Shown here piece after piece: positions 7,715 through 50,765 of a stretch of DNA of 64,000 nt (its first letter is position 1; each line of letters begins with the position of its first letter). The stretch is from Halorubrum saccharovorum DSM 1137. GTDB lineage: Archaea; Halobacteriota; Halobacteria; Halobacteriales; Haloferacaceae. The translations under genes were made by a program, and so were the position numbers. The DNA is taken from the NCBI RefSeq assembly GCF_000337915.1, contig NZ_AOJE01000006.1:1-64000 (forward strand). Reading direction: 5' to 3'. A model generated the notes under the pieces. It saw only the letters and a list, made by a program, of their open reading frames with translations. It made no database searches and was not told the DNA's origin.

Positions 7715-8908
7715 TCAGTTGCTCGTGGTCTCCGGCACGTCGATGTTCCCGGCGATGATCTCTTCGCGCGCGTCCGCCACCGCGGTCACGATGTCGTCGG
7801 GCACCTGATCGCCGATCTCCTGTCCGTAGACGCACTCGACGCCGTTCGACTCCAGTCCGAGGAAGACCGACTCGCCGCCCTGGTGGTTGTCGTCGATGAC
7901 GTTCGAGATCGACTCGTACACCGCGGTGTCGACGCGTTTCACCATCGACGCAAGGATCACGTCCGCGAACGAGTCCTCGGTGACCGACTGGTCCTGGTCG
8001 ACGCCGAACGCGAACCGGCCCTCGTCCTGTGCCGCCTGGAACACGCCGACACCCGTCGCGCCCGCGGCGTGGTAGACGATGTCGGCACCGCTCTGGTACA
8101 TCGACAGCGCCTGCTCCTGCCCGCCCGAGGGGTCGGCGTAGCTGCCGACGTAGCTCGTGGTGACGTCGACGTCGTCGGACGCGTAGTCGACGCCGGCCTC
8201 GAAGCCGGCCTGGAACCGGCGGATGACCGGGCTGTCGACGCCGCCGATGAACCCGACGTTCGTCGAGTCGGGAGCGGTCGCGCCCGCGCCCGCAGAGAAG
8301 TCGGTCTCGGTCAGGTTCCCGGCGAGCACGCCCATCAGGAACGAGCCCTCGTGCTCGCGGAAGAGGTAGTTCGCGACGTTCGGCTCGTCGACCGCGGTGT
8401 CGACGACCATGAAGTCCTGGTCGGGGAACTGCGGCGCGGTCTCGGTGAGCGCGTCGCCCTGGTTGAACCCGATACAGGAGACTAGGTCGTAGTCCGGATC
8501 CGTCGAGTTCGCGTAGCGCTGCTGGTACTGTCCGAACTCGCCGGTGCCGTCCGGTTCCGACTCGGCGTACTCGATGCCGAACTCCTCTTCGGCGTCGAGG
8601 ATGCCCTGCTTGGCCGCGTCGTTGAACGAGTTGTCACCGAGGCCGCCGTCGGAGTAGACGATGCCGACCGTGGCGGGCACGTCGGAGCCGTCCGAACCGT
8701 CGGAGCCGTCCGAACCGTCGGAGCCGTCCGAACCGTCTGAACCGTCCGAACCGTCCGATCCGTCGGAACCGTTCGACCCGTCCGAGGTGTTACCGTCGGA
8801 GCCGTCGGACCCGTCACCGCTCGGGCCGCCGCTACAGCCGGCGAGGCCAACGAGTCCCGCCGCGCTTGCCGCCTTGAGGAACCGCCGCCGATCGAAGTCG
8901 GATGCCAT
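7715..8908 (-). CDS. BMP-family substrate-binding lipoprotein (nucleoside-type importer)
   Basis: A 397-residue extracytoplasmic binding protein of the basic membrane protein (PnrA/BmpA) family. The ATG at 8908 gives a Tat signal (RRRFLK, residues 7-12) and a lipobox ending at Cys25, so it is exported folded and lipid-anchored. Residues 26 to about 80 are a Ser-Asp-Gly repeat linker. The mature domain begins PATVGIVYSDGGLGDNSFND, typical of BMP proteins. Homologues bind purine nucleosides; a different ligand cannot be excluded. It is the first gene of the importer operon, with a TATA box 26-34 nt upstream. Confidence 0.9.
   Translation of the reverse strand: MASDFDRRRFLKAASAAGLVGLAGCSGGPSGDGSDGSDGNTSDGSNGSDGSDGSDGSDGSDGSDGSDGSDGSDGSDVPATVGIVYSDGGLGDNSFNDAAKQGILDAEEEFGIEYAESEPDGTGEFGQYQQRYANSTDPDYDLVSCIGFNQGDALTETAPQFPDQDFMVVDTAVDEPNVANYLFREHEGSFLMGVLAGNLTETDFSAGAGATAPDSTNVGFIGGVDSPVIRRFQAGFEAGVDYASDDVDVTTSYVGSYADPSGGQEQALSMYQSGADIVYHAAGATGVGVFQAAQDEGRFAFGVDQDQSVTEDSFADVILASMVKRVDTAVYESISNVIDDNHQGGESVFLGLESNGVECVYGQEIGDQVPDDIVTAVADAREEIIAGNIDVPETTSN
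8685..8785 (-). repeat. Tandem repeat encoding the (Ser-Asp-Gly)n linker
   Basis: About 100 bp of 9- and 18-bp units (GGACGGTTC / GGCTCCGAC type) encode the repeated SDG linker between lipid anchor and ligand-binding domain. Its length is expected to vary between strains. Such acidic, flexible tethers are common on haloarchaeal surface lipoproteins. Confidence 0.8.
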
Positions 8909-8942: not shown

Positions 8943-9090
8943 TCGTCGCTCTCTCGGTCCTGTTGTTGCACGTTCGCGTGATACCGCGGGGAAAATTTCC
9001 CCGATCCGCCGCGATCGACCGGGAATCGTGCACATGTTCGTGGTGTATCAGGAACGATCGGGCTGTTTTCGGGGAGCGAACGTCACCCCC

Positions 9091-9220
9091 TCGCCGGTGC
9101 GGACAGCTACCCGCCGGTGCGGACAGCTACCCGCCGGTGCGGACAGCTACTCGCCGGTGCGGACAGCTACCCGCCGGTGCGGACAGCTACTCGCCGCCGC
9201 GGACAGCTACTCGCCGCCGC
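9091..9220. repeat. 20-bp tandem repeat, six full copies, at the 3' end of the phosphohexomutase gene
   Basis: The unit TCGCCGGTGCGGACAGCTAC repeats with exact 20-bp period from 9091 to 9210, then half a unit to 9220. Copies differ at one to three positions (C/T at the first base; GGT or GCC before GCGG). The last full copy contains the stop codon (9207-9209) and terminal codons of the gene on the minus strand, so the array appears to have grown outward from the gene's end. The period is not a multiple of three and the units are contiguous without spacers, so this is not a CRISPR. Confidence 0.95.
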
Positions 9221-10670
9221 CGACGGTGGTCACCGCGTCCTCGACGACCGCCCGGACGCCCGCGATCAGCTCGTCGACCTCGTCGCTTTCGGCGTAAACT
9301 CGCACGTACGGTTCCGTACCGGAGGGTCGAACGAGCGCCCACGAGGCGTCCGGGAACTCCAGCCGCACCCCGTGGTCGGTGTCGACCGTCGCGCCTGGGA
9401 AGGCGTCCGGAAGGGTCGATCCCAATCGCTCCATCACGTCGGGTTTGGCCTCGTCCGGGCAGTCGACGCTGACCTTGCGGTACGGGCGCTCCGTGATCGG
9501 CGCGCGGAGCGCGTCAAGCCCCGACTCGGCGACGAGCCGAGCGATCACGGCCGCCGAAGCGACACCGTCGATCCACTCGCCGAAGCCGACGTGGATGTGC
9601 TTCCACGGCTCGGCGGCGAAGACGACGCGGGTGTCGTCGCCGGGGGCGGCCTCCGCTCGTATCGCCGCGATCCCCTCGTGAAGTGCGCCGAGCCGGACGC
9701 GGTCGGCCCGTCCACCGGCCTCGCGGACGCGCTCGTCGATCCGGCCCGAGGCGTTCGGCGTCGTCACGACCACCGGGTCGGCGGCGTCGCTCTCGCGGGT
9801 GTACCGCTCGGCGAGCAGCGCGAGCACGGTGTCCTCGTGGACCACGTCGCCGTCGGCGTCGACGATCACGATTCGGTCGGAGTCGCCGTCGTGGCCGACG
9901 CCAAAGGCGAACCCCTCGGTGTCGCCGACGTCGCCATCGTCGTCCACACTCGCGCGGCCCGGGCGCTCGACGCCCTCGTTGGCGTCGGCGACGAAGGCCC
10001 GGAGGTCCCGGAGAGTCTCGGGGGTCGGCTTGCTCCCGCGGCCGGGGAAGTGGCCGTCGACGTTCCCGTTGAGCGTGACGACCTCTGCGCCGAGTTCTCG
10101 CAGGACGGTCGGAGTCGCTGGCGCGGACATGCCGTTCCCGCAGTCGACCGCCACTCGCAGGCCGTCGAGGTCGTCTCCGAACCCTTCCGCGTACGCGCGG
10201 ACCGCGTCGAGGTAGCCGCCGAGGGTGTCGACGCGCTCCGACTCGGTCCACTCGTCCCACGCCGCGGGGGGCCCCTCGCCCGCGACGCGCTCTTCGACGG
10301 CGCGCTCCGCCTCGCGATCGAACTCGCTGCCGTCCCGGAACAGCTTGATCCCGTTGTCGGTCGGCGGGTTGTGCGAGGCCGTGAGCATCACGCCGTACCG
10401 TCCCTGCGAGGCGTGCGCGAGCGCCGGCGTCGGCAGGCGTCCGGCGCGGAGCACCCGGACACCGCCGGAGGCGAGCCCCGACTCCATCGCGGCCGCGATC
10501 GCCGGACCCGTCACGCGCCCGTCGCGGGCGAGGACAACCTCGGCGGTCTGTTTCCCCTCGCTAGCCGCTCGTACCTCCGCCGCGACCGCTCGGCCGACGG
10601 CCAGCGCGAGCTCCGGCGTAACGCGGGCCTCGGCGCTGCCGCGGATCCCCGCGGTTCCGAACAAGTCCAT
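9207..10670 (-). CDS. Phosphohexomutase (phosphoglucomutase/phosphomannomutase/GlmM family)
   Basis: A 487-residue alpha-D-phosphohexomutase that moves phosphate between C1 and C6 of a sugar. It has the phosphoserine loop TASHNPPTDN (Ser99), the metal loop GDSDR near residue 255, and the phosphate-binding RPSGTEP near the C-terminus. The third, sugar-binding loop, usually GExSGH, reads EPWKHIH, which changes likely substrate recognition; I recall this variant in haloarchaeal homologues, so it is probably lineage-typical. Glucosamine-, mannose- or glucose-phosphate specificity cannot be decided. The stop lies inside a 20-bp tandem repeat. Confidence 0.88.
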   Translation of the reverse strand: MDLFGTAGIRGSAEARVTPELALAVGRAVAAEVRAASEGKQTAEVVLARDGRVTGPAIAAAMESGLASGGVRVLRAGRLPTPALAHASQGRYGVMLTASHNPPTDNGIKLFRDGSEFDREAERAVEERVAGEGPPAAWDEWTESERVDTLGGYLDAVRAYAEGFGDDLDGLRVAVDCGNGMSAPATPTVLRELGAEVVTLNGNVDGHFPGRGSKPTPETLRDLRAFVADANEGVERPGRASVDDDGDVGDTEGFAFGVGHDGDSDRIVIVDADGDVVHEDTVLALLAERYTRESDAADPVVVTTPNASGRIDERVREAGGRADRVRLGALHEGIAAIRAEAAPGDDTRVVFAAEPWKHIHVGFGEWIDGVASAAVIARLVAESGLDALRAPITERPYRKVSVDCPDEAKPDVMERLGSTLPDAFPGATVDTDHGVRLEFPDASWALVRPSGTEPYVRVYAESDEVDELIAGVRAVVEDAVTTVGGGE

Positions 10671-20393: not shown

Positions 20394-20400
20394 TTTATAA
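20394..20400 (+). promoter_or_regulatory. TATA-like element before structured element copy 1
   Basis: TTTATAA starts 22 nt before the first stem of the element. TATA-like hexamers stand at 20-25 nt in the other three copies (22510, 48071, 50291), which argues that the element has its own promoter. Confidence 0.55.
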
Positions 20401-20415
20401 GTGAACGAGGCGGTC

Positions 20416-20679
20416 GGCGCGTGCCTGCGAGCGTCCGAAGGACGCGAGTCAGCACGCGCGAGGGAGTCGGTCACTCGGAGCGAAGCGGAGAGTGACCGAC
20501 GAGGCTGGGGAGGCGTGAGGTGCGGTGCGGTCGCGGTCGGGCGGGACTCAAAGGGGTAGCCGGGAGGACCGCGCAGGCGACGGAAGCACCGCAGGGAGCG
20601 AGTGAAACGAGCGACTGAGGAGCGCAGCGAGCGTGCGCCGCCCTCACGGCTGGGGCTTTGGAGGTGTTCGCCGTCGATC
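20416..20679 (+). ncRNA. Candidate structured ncRNA element, copy 1 (long form)
   Basis: A 264-nt element between convergent genes. Stem P1 is GCGCGTGC/GCACGCGC (20417-20424 with 20452-20459), enclosing hairpin GCGTCC-GAA-GGACGC. Stem P2 is GTCGGTCACTC/GAGTGACCGAC (20466-20476 with 20490-20500). An unpaired G-rich core follows (20501-20523). Stem P3 (20558-20575 with 20634-20651) pairs 15 of 18 positions around a 58-nt purine-rich loop. The 3' border is GGGGCTTTGGAGGTGTTC then GCCGTCGATC. Frames are not conserved between copies, so it is not coding. I recognise no named RNA family. Confidence 0.7.
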
Positions 20680-20764
20680 CGCGAACAGCAGTTTATAAAT
20701 AACCGAGTAATCCGAAACAGATCCTGTTCCACTTAAAAACGACACCCCGACCGCAAAGTACGTC

Positions 20765-21516: not shown

Positions 21517-22515
21517 ATGACCGAGAAGGCCACCGCGCGAGCCCACCCGATCCAGGGGCTCGTCAAGTACCACGGGATGCGCGACGAGGAACTGCGGCTC
21601 CCGTACCACGACAGCATCAGCCTCTGTACCGCCCCGACCGCGACGACGACCACCGTCGAGTGGCAGCCCGACGCGAGCGAGGACACCTACGTCATCGGCG
21701 GCGAGGCGGTCGACGGGCGCGCCGCCGAGCGCATCGACATGGTCGTCGACCACGTCCGCGAGCTGGCCGGCGTCGACGCCGCGGTCCGGCTGGAGAGCGA
21801 GAACTCCTTCCCGTCGAACATCGGCTTCGGCTCCTCGTCGTCGGGCTTCGCGGCCGCCGCGCTCGCCTTGACGGAGGCCGCCGGCCTCGATATGTCCCTC
21901 CCCGAGGTCTCCACCGTCGCCCGCCGCGGCTCCTCCTCCGCGGCGCGCTCGGTCACGGGCGCCTACTCCCGGCTCGACGCCGGGCTCAACGACGAGGACT
22001 GCCGCTCGTACCGGCTCGACGTGGGCGTGAGCGACGACGGCTTCGACCCCGAGGAGGACCTCCGGATCGTCGCCGCGCACGTCCCCGCCTACAAGGAGAC
22101 GGAGGAGGCCCACCGCGAGGCCGCCGCGAGCCACATGATGCAGGCGCGGACCGCACACGTGCAGGACCAGCTCGTCGAGATGACCGACGCCCTGCGAGAG
22201 GGCGAGTTCGACCGGATCTTCGAGACCGCCGAACACGACTCCCTCTCCTTGACGGCCACCACCATGACCGGCCCCGCGGGCTGGGTGTACTGGCAGCCCG
22301 AGACGATCGCCGTGTTCAACGCCGTCCGCGAACTCCGCGAGGAGGGCGTCCCGGTCTACTTCTCGACGGACACCGGCGCCTCGGTGTACGTGAACACGCT
22401 GGCCGACCACGTCGACGAAGTCGAAAGCCGGATCGCCGAGATCGGCATCGACACCGACGTCTGGGAGGTCGGCGGCCCGGCGCGCGTCCTCGACGAGAGC
22501 GAGGCGCTGTTTTAA
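21517..22515 (+). CDS. mvaD: Phosphomevalonate/diphosphomevalonate decarboxylase (GHMP family)
   Basis: A 332-residue GHMP-superfamily enzyme for the last decarboxylation step of the mevalonate route to isoprenoids. The start AHPIQGLVKYHGMRDE and the phosphate-binding FPSNIGFGSSSSGFAAAA fit the decarboxylases rather than kinases, and the catalytic Asp is in STDTGASVYV. In Haloferax the orthologous family was shown to act on mevalonate 5-phosphate, in a modified pathway with isopentenyl phosphate kinase; I infer the same here. It supplies archaeal lipid and carotenoid precursors. The gene is monocistronic. Confidence 0.9.
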   Translation: MTEKATARAHPIQGLVKYHGMRDEELRLPYHDSISLCTAPTATTTTVEWQPDASEDTYVIGGEAVDGRAAERIDMVVDHVRELAGVDAAVRLESENSFPSNIGFGSSSSGFAAAALALTEAAGLDMSLPEVSTVARRGSSSAARSVTGAYSRLDAGLNDEDCRSYRLDVGVSDDGFDPEEDLRIVAAHVPAYKETEEAHREAAASHMMQARTAHVQDQLVEMTDALREGEFDRIFETAEHDSLSLTATTMTGPAGWVYWQPETIAVFNAVRELREEGVPVYFSTDTGASVYVNTLADHVDEVESRIAEIGIDTDVWEVGGPARVLDESEALF

Positions 22516-22534
22516 TCGAAGGCGGCGGTACGGT

Positions 22535-22806
22535 GGCGCGTGCCGCCGAGCGTCCGAAGGACGCGAAGCGCACGCGCGAGGTCGTCGGGCGGAGCCCGAC
22601 TGCCAGAGGGACCGTTGGTCCCTCGCTGGAGTCGGTCACTCGGAGCGAAGCGGAGAGTGACCGACGAGGCTGGGGAGGCGAGAGGTGCGGTCGCGTTCCC
22701 GCGAGCGGTAGCGAGCGGGAGCACGGAAGTCGCAGCGCCGAGCGAAGCGAGGCGACCGTCTTCCGGCGGTGCGGTCGGTTGGGGCTTTGGAGGTGTTCAC
22801 TGTCAC
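22535..22806 (+). ncRNA. Candidate structured ncRNA element, copy 2 (variant P3)
   Basis: A 272-nt copy in the gap between convergent mvaD and photolyase genes. P1 (GCGCGTGC with GCACGCGC) and its inner hairpin GCGTCC-GAA-GGACGC are identical to copy 1, with a small extra hairpin before P2. The P2 arms GTCGGTCACTC/GAGTGACCGAC and the G-rich core are also identical. The P3 region differs: a CCCGC/GCGGG hairpin, then a long stem GCAC-GGAAG-TCGC pairing with GCGA-CTTCC-GTGC. The 3' border GGGGCTTTGGAGGTGTTC is kept. TTTTAAT at 22510 lies 25 nt upstream, at the very end of mvaD. Confidence 0.65.
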
Positions 22807-22836
22807 GGCAACGGTGCATACTTCACTGACTTCCAG

Positions 22837-48011: not shown

Positions 48012-48090
48012 GGAACCGGTCTCGCCTAGGCAACGGCAGTGGTTTTAAACGGAATGGATCGCGACGATCGCTTATAAACAGATATGCGGT

Positions 48091-48264
48091 GGCGCGCGCC
48101 TCCGAGCGGCCGCCACCGGCGGCCGCGAAGGAGCGCCGCGCGAGGGACGCCGCGAGTGAGGTGGGCGACCGAAGGGAGCCCCGAGCGAGCGGCGAGGTTG
48201 GGGAGGTGTGAGGTGCTGTGCGCCCGCCTCCCGGCTGGGGCTCTGGAGGCGTTCGCCGTCGATC
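48091..48264 (+). ncRNA. Candidate structured ncRNA element, copy 3 (short form)
   Basis: A 174-nt copy between the convergent Lrp-type and gatE genes. P1 is shortened, with an inner 9-bp hairpin GCGGCCGCC-ACC-GGCGGCCGC. P2 keeps its pairing with different bases (GCCGC with GCGGC). The core GAGGTTGGGGAGGTGTGAGG is kept. The P3 arms and the purine loop are missing, so the core runs almost directly into GGCTGGGGCTCTGGAGG and GTTCGCCGTCGATC. CTTATAAA begins 20 nt upstream (48071). Confidence 0.6.
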
Positions 48265-48306
48265 TCTAGTCCGTCGTTTATGAACAGGCGCTCTACACAC
48301 CGGGAT

Positions 48307-50311: not shown

Positions 50312-50567
50312 GGCGCGTGCCGCCGAGCGCCCGCAGGGCGCGAGGAGCACGCGCGAGGGACGCGGTGAGCGCTCGGAGAGCGCGAGCCGCGAGGCTGGGG
50401 AGGCGTGAGGTGCTGTGCGGTCGCGGTTGGGTGGGACTCAAAGGGGCAGTCGCCGAGGGGCACGCAGGGGACGTAAGCACCGCAAGGAGCGAGTGGAACG
50501 AGCGACTGAGGAGCGCAGCGAGCGTGCCCCTCGGCGACTGGGGCTTTGGAGGTGTCCGCCGCCGATC
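50312..50567 (+). ncRNA. Candidate structured ncRNA element, copy 4 (long form)
   Basis: A 256-nt copy between gatE and tRNA-Leu. P1 arms equal copy 1; the inner hairpin is GCGCCC-GCA-GGGCGC, differing from copy 1 in both arms. P2 is CGCGG plus GCGCTC pairing with GAGCGC plus CCGCG, again with wholly different bases. P3 is a perfect 19-bp stem (50447-50465 with 50522-50540). Its 56-nt loop matches copy 1 at 52 of 55 aligned bases counted into the arm. The 3' border GGGGCTTTGGAGGTGTCC is conserved. Confidence 0.72.
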
Positions 50568-50680
50568 TGCAGTCAAACGCAAAGTCGTCACTCCTCACGT
50601 AGCGGCCGAAAGGAATTGTGCGTGGGTGCTGTCGTAGAGACAACACCGTGCATCGGTGTGGCGGGTGTTCCGCCGAGCGA
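50568..50680. other. Gap between element copy 4 and tRNA-Leu
   Basis: 113 bp with no gene. It holds a short inverted repeat (ACACCG...CGGTGT near 50644-50659) just past the tRNA's 3' end, which may be a terminator or processing hairpin. Confidence 0.4.
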
Positions 50681-50765
50681 TGCGTGGGACCGGATTTGAA
50701 CCGGCGGACCTCTACAGGACAGCGCCCTCAACGCTGCGCCGTTGGCCTGGCTTGGCTACCCACGC
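50681..50765 (-). tRNA. tRNA-Leu(GAG)
   Basis: Reads on the minus strand from 50765. Acceptor arms are GCGTGGG and CCCACGC with discriminator A at 50681, and CCA is not encoded. The anticodon stem CAGCG/CGCTG encloses loop TTGAGGG, anticodon GAG, which decodes CUC and CUU leucine codons. A long variable arm (class II) and the T arm with TTCAAAT complete the cloverleaf. No intron is seen. A TATA-like TTTTAATTA lies upstream (50798-50806). Confidence 0.95.

Follow-up and report, generated by a model that had tools for sequence, protein, structure and literature searches.

The published repeats closest to the element described here are the palindrome-associated transposable elements (PATE) and small mobile repeats (SMR-A, including HqIRS42, HqIRS43 and HqIRS55) of Haloquadratum walsbyi, which like it are short, non-coding, high-copy and hairpin-rich haloarchaeal repeats without target duplications; SMR-A is about 110 bp long, reaches up to 54 copies and has a mobilization described as enigmatic (PMC3119063). 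The REP and BIME sequences of bacteria are likewise high-copy extragenic palindromes, often lying between convergent genes and in alternating orientation, and their known partners include proteins (PMC2817692, PMC3733652). Complex conserved folds whose function is not evident from gene context are also found in OLE, GOLLD and ROOL, large bacterial RNAs whose structures were determined on the RNA itself (PMC12286853). Kink-turns and their relatives resemble our element in setting tandem sheared G.A pairs between short helices.

The element departs from each of these systems. Compared with PATE and SMR-A, from which it is set apart by description and not by sequence, it showed no link to IS605-type transposases in our searches, occupies fixed sites across a genus and carries an ornate covarying fold. 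It measures roughly 120–260 nt rather than the 20–40 of REP and BIME, its compensatory fold is class-wide, and an element-rich genome contains no Y1 (RAYT-type) transposase; membership of REP/BIME was rejected on its length beyond a 20–40 bp palindrome and on that missing Y1 gene. Unlike OLE, GOLLD and ROOL it is dispersed in tens to hundreds of copies per genome and is described here from DNA sequence, and its ladder of G.A pairs lacks the 3-nt bulge that a kink-turn places beside the tandem G.A, showing repeated symmetric steps instead. We lean, by a small measure, towards reading it as an undescribed family selected for a single-stranded form, probably RNA, with the hairpin from which the analysis started being the 3′ domain of one copy.

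Architecture of the element

The window, a stretch of 64,000 nt from the 3.42-Mb genome of a Halorubrum species (class Halobacteria), contains four copies that are parts of one family (Table 1). The starting hairpin (P3 of copy 4) is the 3′ domain of an intergenic element of about 260 nt, in which an AT box, hairpins P1 and P2, motif J, a G-rich spacer, P4, GGG opposite GGG, P3 and a tail follow one another from 5′ to 3′. P1 is of the type GGCGCG..GCACGCGC, P2 differs in nearly every copy, motif J reads GAGGCTGGGGAGGCGTGAGG, and the tail ends in GGTGTTCACCGTCGATC, often followed by 57-bp repeats containing TTTATAA. Despite the four element copies, only two P3 domains in the window, those of copies 1 and 4, exceed the threshold of our covariance model.

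Several further repeats were seen alongside. The 57-bp tail repeats, of the form CTGGGGCTTTGGAGGTGTTCACCGTCGATC-N12-TTTATAAGCGAGCGG, stand after many copies as 1–4 tandem units (window 50540-50700; loci L206-L235 at site 4). Two recurrent hairpin modules, CGCCGGC..GCCGGCTGCCAGAG..CGCTGGA and CCCGCGAG..CGGAAGTCGCAGC..CTTCCG, which resemble nested mobile hairpins, occur at varied points of copies (L004, L007, L009, L049, L103 and others). A single P3 loop (L102, + strand) holds an unrelated AT-rich insert of about 100 nt. Elsewhere in the window, tandem 20-bp repeats CCGCCGGTGCGGACAGCTAC at 9090-9229 adjoin a 9-bp coding-type repeat at 8662-8803.

Table 1. Coordinates of the element copies and of the parts of copy 4 in the window
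Feature	Position	Strand	Basis or remark
Copy 1, whole element	20394-20680	+	AT box 20394-20400; R1 domain 20544-20664; P3 arms 20558-20575 and 20634-20651
Copy 2, extra hairpin modules, no typical P3 ladder	22531-22808	+	Begins directly after the mvaD stop (mvaD 21517-22515)
Copy 3, short element, no P3 ladder	48072-48267	+	Between Lrp/AsnC-type regulator gene and gatE (convergent)
Copy 4, AT box TTTATAAA	50291-50298	+	Just outside conserved 5′ edge; AT content, TTATA counts
Copy 4, P1 hairpin, GGCGCGUGCC ... GCACGCGC, CGAG/CGAG internal loop	50312-50354	+	Sequence, copy comparison
Copy 4, P2 hairpin, exchanged as a whole from copy to copy	50362-50390	+	Arm-pair comparison
Copy 4, motif J, conserved, G-rich, GAGGCTGGGGAGGCGTGAGG	50391-50410	+	Genome-wide counts
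Copy 4, P4-P3-ladder domain	50434-50552	+	Covariance model R1, 120.9 bits
Copy 4, P4 5′ strand CUCAAAG	50437-50443	+	Pairs with CUUUGgAG
Copy 4, P3 stem 5′ arm	50447-50465	+	Pairing, covariation
Copy 4, P3 'loop' (GA ladder), purine-rich hairpin in which 2-bp steps alternate with tandem G.A pairs	50466-50521	+	Ladder counts, RNAalifold, pair counts
Copy 4, P3 stem 3′ arm	50522-50540	+	Pairing, covariation
Copy 4, P4 3′ strand CUUUGgAG	50544-50551	+	GGG opposite GGG between P4 and P3

Covariation of the stems

An earlier note on this DNA, which compared dispersed paralogues (copies 1 and 4), had described a perfect 19-bp P3 stem in copy 4 and, in copy 1, arms of different sequence that still pair at 15 of 18 positions. 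Reading back the sequence bore out both descriptions: CAGTCGCCGAGGGGCACGC pairs with GCGTGCCCCTCGGCGACTG along its full length (19 of 19 positions), enclosing a loop of 56 nt, and the copy 1 arms differ from these and pair at 15 of 18. Against dinucleotide shuffles, the + strand of copy 4 folds with z = -4.1 and that of copy 1 with z = -3.7.

When the arms were cut at fixed anchors, each blind to the other, the 88 distinct pairs of P3 arms were paired at 88.5% of positions, compared with 70.4% when arms were re-dealt among copies (sd 1.0; maximum of 1000 re-deals, 74.4%). The same procedure gave 78.8% against 55.3% for P2 (140 copies, 81 distinct arm pairs), and P1 yielded no covariation signal in a crude register (0.744 versus 0.726 shuffled). 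Among 155 copies, the P4 pair that adjoins AAG/CUU is A-T in 127, G-C in 22, G-T in 3, A-C in 2 and A-A in 1, and one P4 pair is swapped, C-G versus G-C, between Halorubrum and other genera.

Alignments across copies gave the same picture. From 31 sequences aligned with MAFFT (alignment A2), RNAalifold derived a structure of 31 pairs, of which 23 show changes on both sides; 98.0% of cells pair (82.9% after shuffling), and the covariation score is 0.461, compared with 0.172 shuffled and at most 0.064 when partners were slid. The earlier note had asked for homologues with covarying P3 arms, and these were found in strength: 72 class-wide sequences gave 96.3% paired cells against 69.9% with arms shuffled and a covariation score of 0.637 (controls: 0.175 with shuffled arms, no more than 0.072 with slid partners), although this alignment leans towards the structure because it was fitted to the covariance model, a fault from which A2 is free. 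Two-sided compensatory changes exceed both the shuffled and the slid controls, as in a conserved structured nucleic acid.

The P3 loop is a ladder of tandem G.A mismatches

The loop between the P3 arms had been described as nearly invariant, matching at 52 of 55 bases between copies 1 and 4. The 52 identical bases stand, with 56, the length of the copy 4 loop, as the denominator; near-invariance did not survive a wider set of copies. The loop is itself a hairpin of short helices, which near its tip reads NN-GA-NN-GA-NN-loop, so that 5′-GA-3′/5′-GA-3′ mismatches alternate with 2-bp steps. Of 85 distinct loops, 73 contain at least two such units, compared with 2 of 1700 sequences shuffled by dinucleotide. 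Changes in the steps are compensated (GC/GC, AC/GU, GU/AC, AG/CU, GG/CC), while at the mismatch positions G and A stand at 95–100% in the columns checked. Selection on an RNA structure, the claim drawn from the two window copies, was thus upheld in that the arms of homologues covary and amended in that the loop is a structured hairpin with covariation of its own, the fixed parts being the G.A mismatches and a few motifs. Apical loops are predominantly GAA or GGA triloops with some GNYA tetraloops, and GNRA is not the usual type. A pseudo-symmetry of the loop around 3-nt RCA segments resembles a bulge-helix-bulge; cleavage by EndA was nevertheless set aside as a candidate, as bases on the facing strand are unpaired too.

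Strand polarity and the folding molecule

Tandem G.A is a feature of one strand, since its complement is C.T. Well-paired P1-P3 arms contain 88 G.A to 21 C.T and 56 G-U to 32 A-C; in the ladder the latter ratio is 21 to 4, and class-wide, with a constant U-G pair set aside, it is 60 to 21 (P = 1.7e-5, binomial test that ignores relatedness). A function of double-stranded DNA, or a symmetric mutation process, would predict G-U and A-C in a 1:1 ratio. The excess of G-U therefore marks the single + strand as the folding strand and, judged from the substitutions, a single-stranded fold is under selection.

Which molecule folds is less clear-cut. The G-U excess fits RNA; it agrees less well with single-stranded DNA, although there too G-T is tolerated better than A-C. 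For RNA the excess is, however, only moderate. Loops of the GNA and GNYA type are uncommon in RNA but frequent in stable DNA hairpins, a point for DNA, and most loops here are GNA triloops or GNYA tetraloops. On balance we hold RNA to be about twice as likely as single-stranded DNA, and put the chance that RNA is the acting molecule at even or slightly better. The RNA part of the earlier claim is thus favoured by the one-strand excess of G-U over A-C, with single-stranded DNA a rival of appreciable, though lower, probability.

Distribution and copy number

Motif J was searched with up to two mismatches, with the reversed pattern as control. The host genome contains 55–57 copies and no reversed match, and all sampled Halorubrum genomes are positive, with 13–194 copies each and again no match to the reversed pattern in the genus. 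Beyond Halorubrum the motif is patchy: the total comes to 69 positive genomes among 391 haloarchaeal ones, and a few genera have high counts; named genera that carry it are Haloparvum, Halorussus, Halosimplex, Halobellus and Halobaculum.

The P4-P3-ladder domain is far more widespread. Searching 292 haloarchaeal genomes of 77 genera with a covariance model of it (R1; cut-off E <= 1e-4) gave matches in 218 genomes, spread over 61 genera; another 124 genomes, drawn from other classes of the same phylum, gave none. Sixteen genomes searched more fully hold between 4 and 86 R1 copies, 86 being the maximum outside Halorubrum. Specificity looks good, the best match in 400 kb of a few-copy genome (58.7% G+C) having E = 0.07. 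In other genera P3 sequences read GGGTGGGACTGAAAGGGGC[P3]GGGGCTTTC, some with P1- and J-like parts upstream. P3 domains there often form divergent pairs with a spacer of about 26–35 nt, often containing GACCAGCC-like motifs (L266-L295, e.g. L273, L277, L278, L280, L290, L294 and L295). A consensus probe found the domain on 34 haloarchaeal plasmids, where the matched stretch is almost always unannotated, and found no match in 50,697 phage records; a phage origin was rejected on this result.

Gene context and the AT box

The window neighbours are ordinary: genes for an ABC transporter permease, a 2Fe-2S ferredoxin, mvaD, a photolyase, an Lrp/AsnC-type regulator and gatE. Contexts were counted on fetched loci, a mostly Halorubrum and non-random sample in which genes were called by a simple codon-based finder. 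In the host genome, 19 of the 34 copies with both neighbours called sit between convergent genes (Fisher P = 2.9e-5 against the local baseline), and in Halorubrum the upstream gene runs in the sense of the element in 86 of 120 cases (P = 2e-6). These biases, together with the start of the element directly after a stop codon at sites 1-3, are what a structured terminator or mRNA 3′-end element acting mainly between convergent genes would produce. Outside Halorubrum, however, convergent contexts make up only 4 of 37 and elements look randomly oriented to their neighbours; copy 4 lies upstream of the divergent gatE and adjoins a convergent tRNA gene; and the hairpin is followed by no U-tract, only by UUU (in CUUUGG or CUUUC), on which ground an intrinsic terminator was rejected. 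We consider a 3′-end role improbable as the explanation of the family. A cis-regulatory leader or riboswitch was likewise rejected, the contexts being mixed and, in Halorubrum, mostly downstream of genes.

Just outside the element, AT content rises to a peak of 0.66–0.69 at positions -20 to -16 of P1, over a baseline of about 0.36 (129 copies), and TTATA occurs at -26 to -14 in 48 places, compared with 14 elsewhere in 100 nt. At site 2, lineages with the element end mvaD in TTTTAA, so that the AT box overlaps the mvaD stop codon, and element-free lineages mostly end it in TTCTGA (window 22509-22525; L178-L205). The AT box may be a TATA box or may reflect an insertion preference, and its fixed distance is no more than suggestive of a noncoding RNA gene. 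Two points tell against the RNA reading here: as a TATA box it would place the predicted start awkwardly, about 8–10 nt inside P1, and the P3-only copies of other genera have no TATA box obvious by eye.

Retention, turnover and exchange of hairpins

Within Halorubrum the element stays in place. At the copy 4 site, between gatE and the tRNA-Leu gene, essentially every readable locus has an element on the same strand. At sites 1, 2 and 3 an element is nearly always there too in relatives that share the flanking genes, although a few look decayed or lost; loci with an intervening gene at sites 1-3 have no element. Beside the tRNA-Leu gene, TTGTGCGTGGGTGCTGTCGTAGAGACAACACCGTGCATCG (window 50614-50655) is strongly conserved in all Halorubrum loci read. 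In other genera the gatE site carries an element of opposite orientation in one genus and none in most. A class-wide conserved position at tRNA-Leu/gatE was rejected accordingly, and this loss of position between genera is a point against our preferred reading. Genus-level retention and between-genus turnover thus describe a family that is stable in place within a genus and mobile in the longer term, with hairpins exchanged.

The hairpins themselves are replaced while the site is kept. The copy 4 site has 24 distinct P2 hairpins among 25 species, and identical hairpins recur at different sites. Of 169 oriented P3 loops, 4 are inverted with their stem arms intact (L215, L219, L223 and L162), as recombination between inverted arms would produce, and in those copies the GA ladder therefore lies on the other strand. 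Because hairpins are replaced and loops now and then inverted as the family evolves, covariation has sources other than point-by-point compensation. The wholesale cassette replacement, the inversions and the shared hairpins could even suggest that the complementarity of the stems comes from mutation itself, through quasi-palindrome correction, template switching or gene conversion between copies, with no function needed. Such correction would erase mismatches, yet those of the tandem G.A type hardly vary across the class while adjacent pairs covary, and the excess of G-U over A-C, about 3 to 1 on one strand only, is unlike a symmetric DNA mechanism. We therefore regard a purely mutational origin as very unlikely and keep to selection on a single-stranded fold.

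Known families and mobile elements

At the gathering cut-off the window matches no Rfam 15 family, copy 4 stays without a match even when E-values up to 5 are allowed, and 20 P3 loci taken from other genera matched nothing but a tRNA. No account of the element was found in the open-licence literature searched. The family appears undescribed, a novelty that rests mostly on the lack of a match in Rfam or in open-licence papers.

The main competitor of a selected RNA, which we rate as possible at clearly less than an even chance, is a non-autonomous mobile DNA element whose single-stranded hairpins would be the signal for an enzyme of single-stranded DNA transposition, as in PATEs, SMRs and REPs, any role for the host being nil or secondary. 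Much of the behaviour of the family agrees with it: copy numbers very uneven within one genus, random orientation to genes and divergent pairs in other genera, nested hairpin modules and 57-bp tandem tails, an AT-rich site directly outside the 5′ edge, DNA-like loops, copies on plasmids and turnover of sites between genera. Of the features of a MITE, single copies lack clear terminal repeats, and divergent pairs end in GAAAGCCCC/GGGGCTTTC.

The transposases usually associated with such elements, however, do not track it. Genome G058, with 86 P3 copies, has no match to Y1 (PF01797) or OrfB_IS605 (PF01385), families that are present in some Halorubrum genomes. Nor does P3 form the ends of such transposons: probing with the P3 domain placed R1 beside Y1 genes in 1 weak case among 21 loci and beside TnpB genes in 4 among 30, roughly what chance would give, and an assignment to IS200/IS605 ends was rejected. 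At the window sites, relatives showed no clean empty sites and no target duplications, and elements hold their positions throughout the genus. Had a structured RNA been copied and spread through reverse transcription, RNA-level polarity, tail duplications and loop inversions would be explained; the reverse transcriptase family PF00078 is absent from all 12 element-rich genomes, a retroelement driven by such an enzyme was rejected, and we give retroelement-like spread almost no weight.

A proposed mechanism

In the reading that we prefer, an undescribed family selected as a single strand, that strand folds into a rod consisting of P4 (CUCAAAG/CUUUGgAG), GGG opposite GGG, a long P3 of almost free sequence and a tip, in which 2-bp steps alternate with fixed tandem sheared G.A mismatches below a small closing loop, usually GNA. 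In Halorubrum the P1 and P2 hairpins and motif J, constant and rich in G, usually stand before the rod. We take the molecule that folds to be, most likely, a predicted RNA of the + strand. P3 and P4 would then act as a scaffold, and the purine ladder and G-rich motifs would be read by a putative partner, probably a protein. Copies would once have been dispersed and are then kept in place within the genus while exchanging hairpins. Of this picture, the fold, its strand polarity, the copy numbers, the distribution and the retention at four sites are results of the analysis, and the transcript, its partner, the function and the mode of dispersal are proposals.

A more specific version of this proposal is tentative, and we would not bet on it at even chances: that the family is a class-wide haloarchaeal noncoding RNA with tens to hundreds of dispersed, individually transcribed copies, in which the GA-ladder tip makes a protein-binding rod in a cytoplasm of molar salt, giving an undescribed high-copy archaeal ribonucleoprotein.

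What the family means for haloarchaeal genomes can be stated more broadly. A repeat with a strongly covarying fold is present in most sampled haloarchaeal genera, with up to 194 copies per genome in Halorubrum, and it accounts for large variable intergenic regions in the haloarchaeal genomes that carry it. If the folding molecule is RNA, the family would be among the most numerous structured RNA families per archaeal genome, and its natural variants would be ready for study; if the family is a mobile DNA element, it would have spread or persisted without the transposases usually invoked. Either way, the GA ladder is a natural test of non-canonical helices at high salt.
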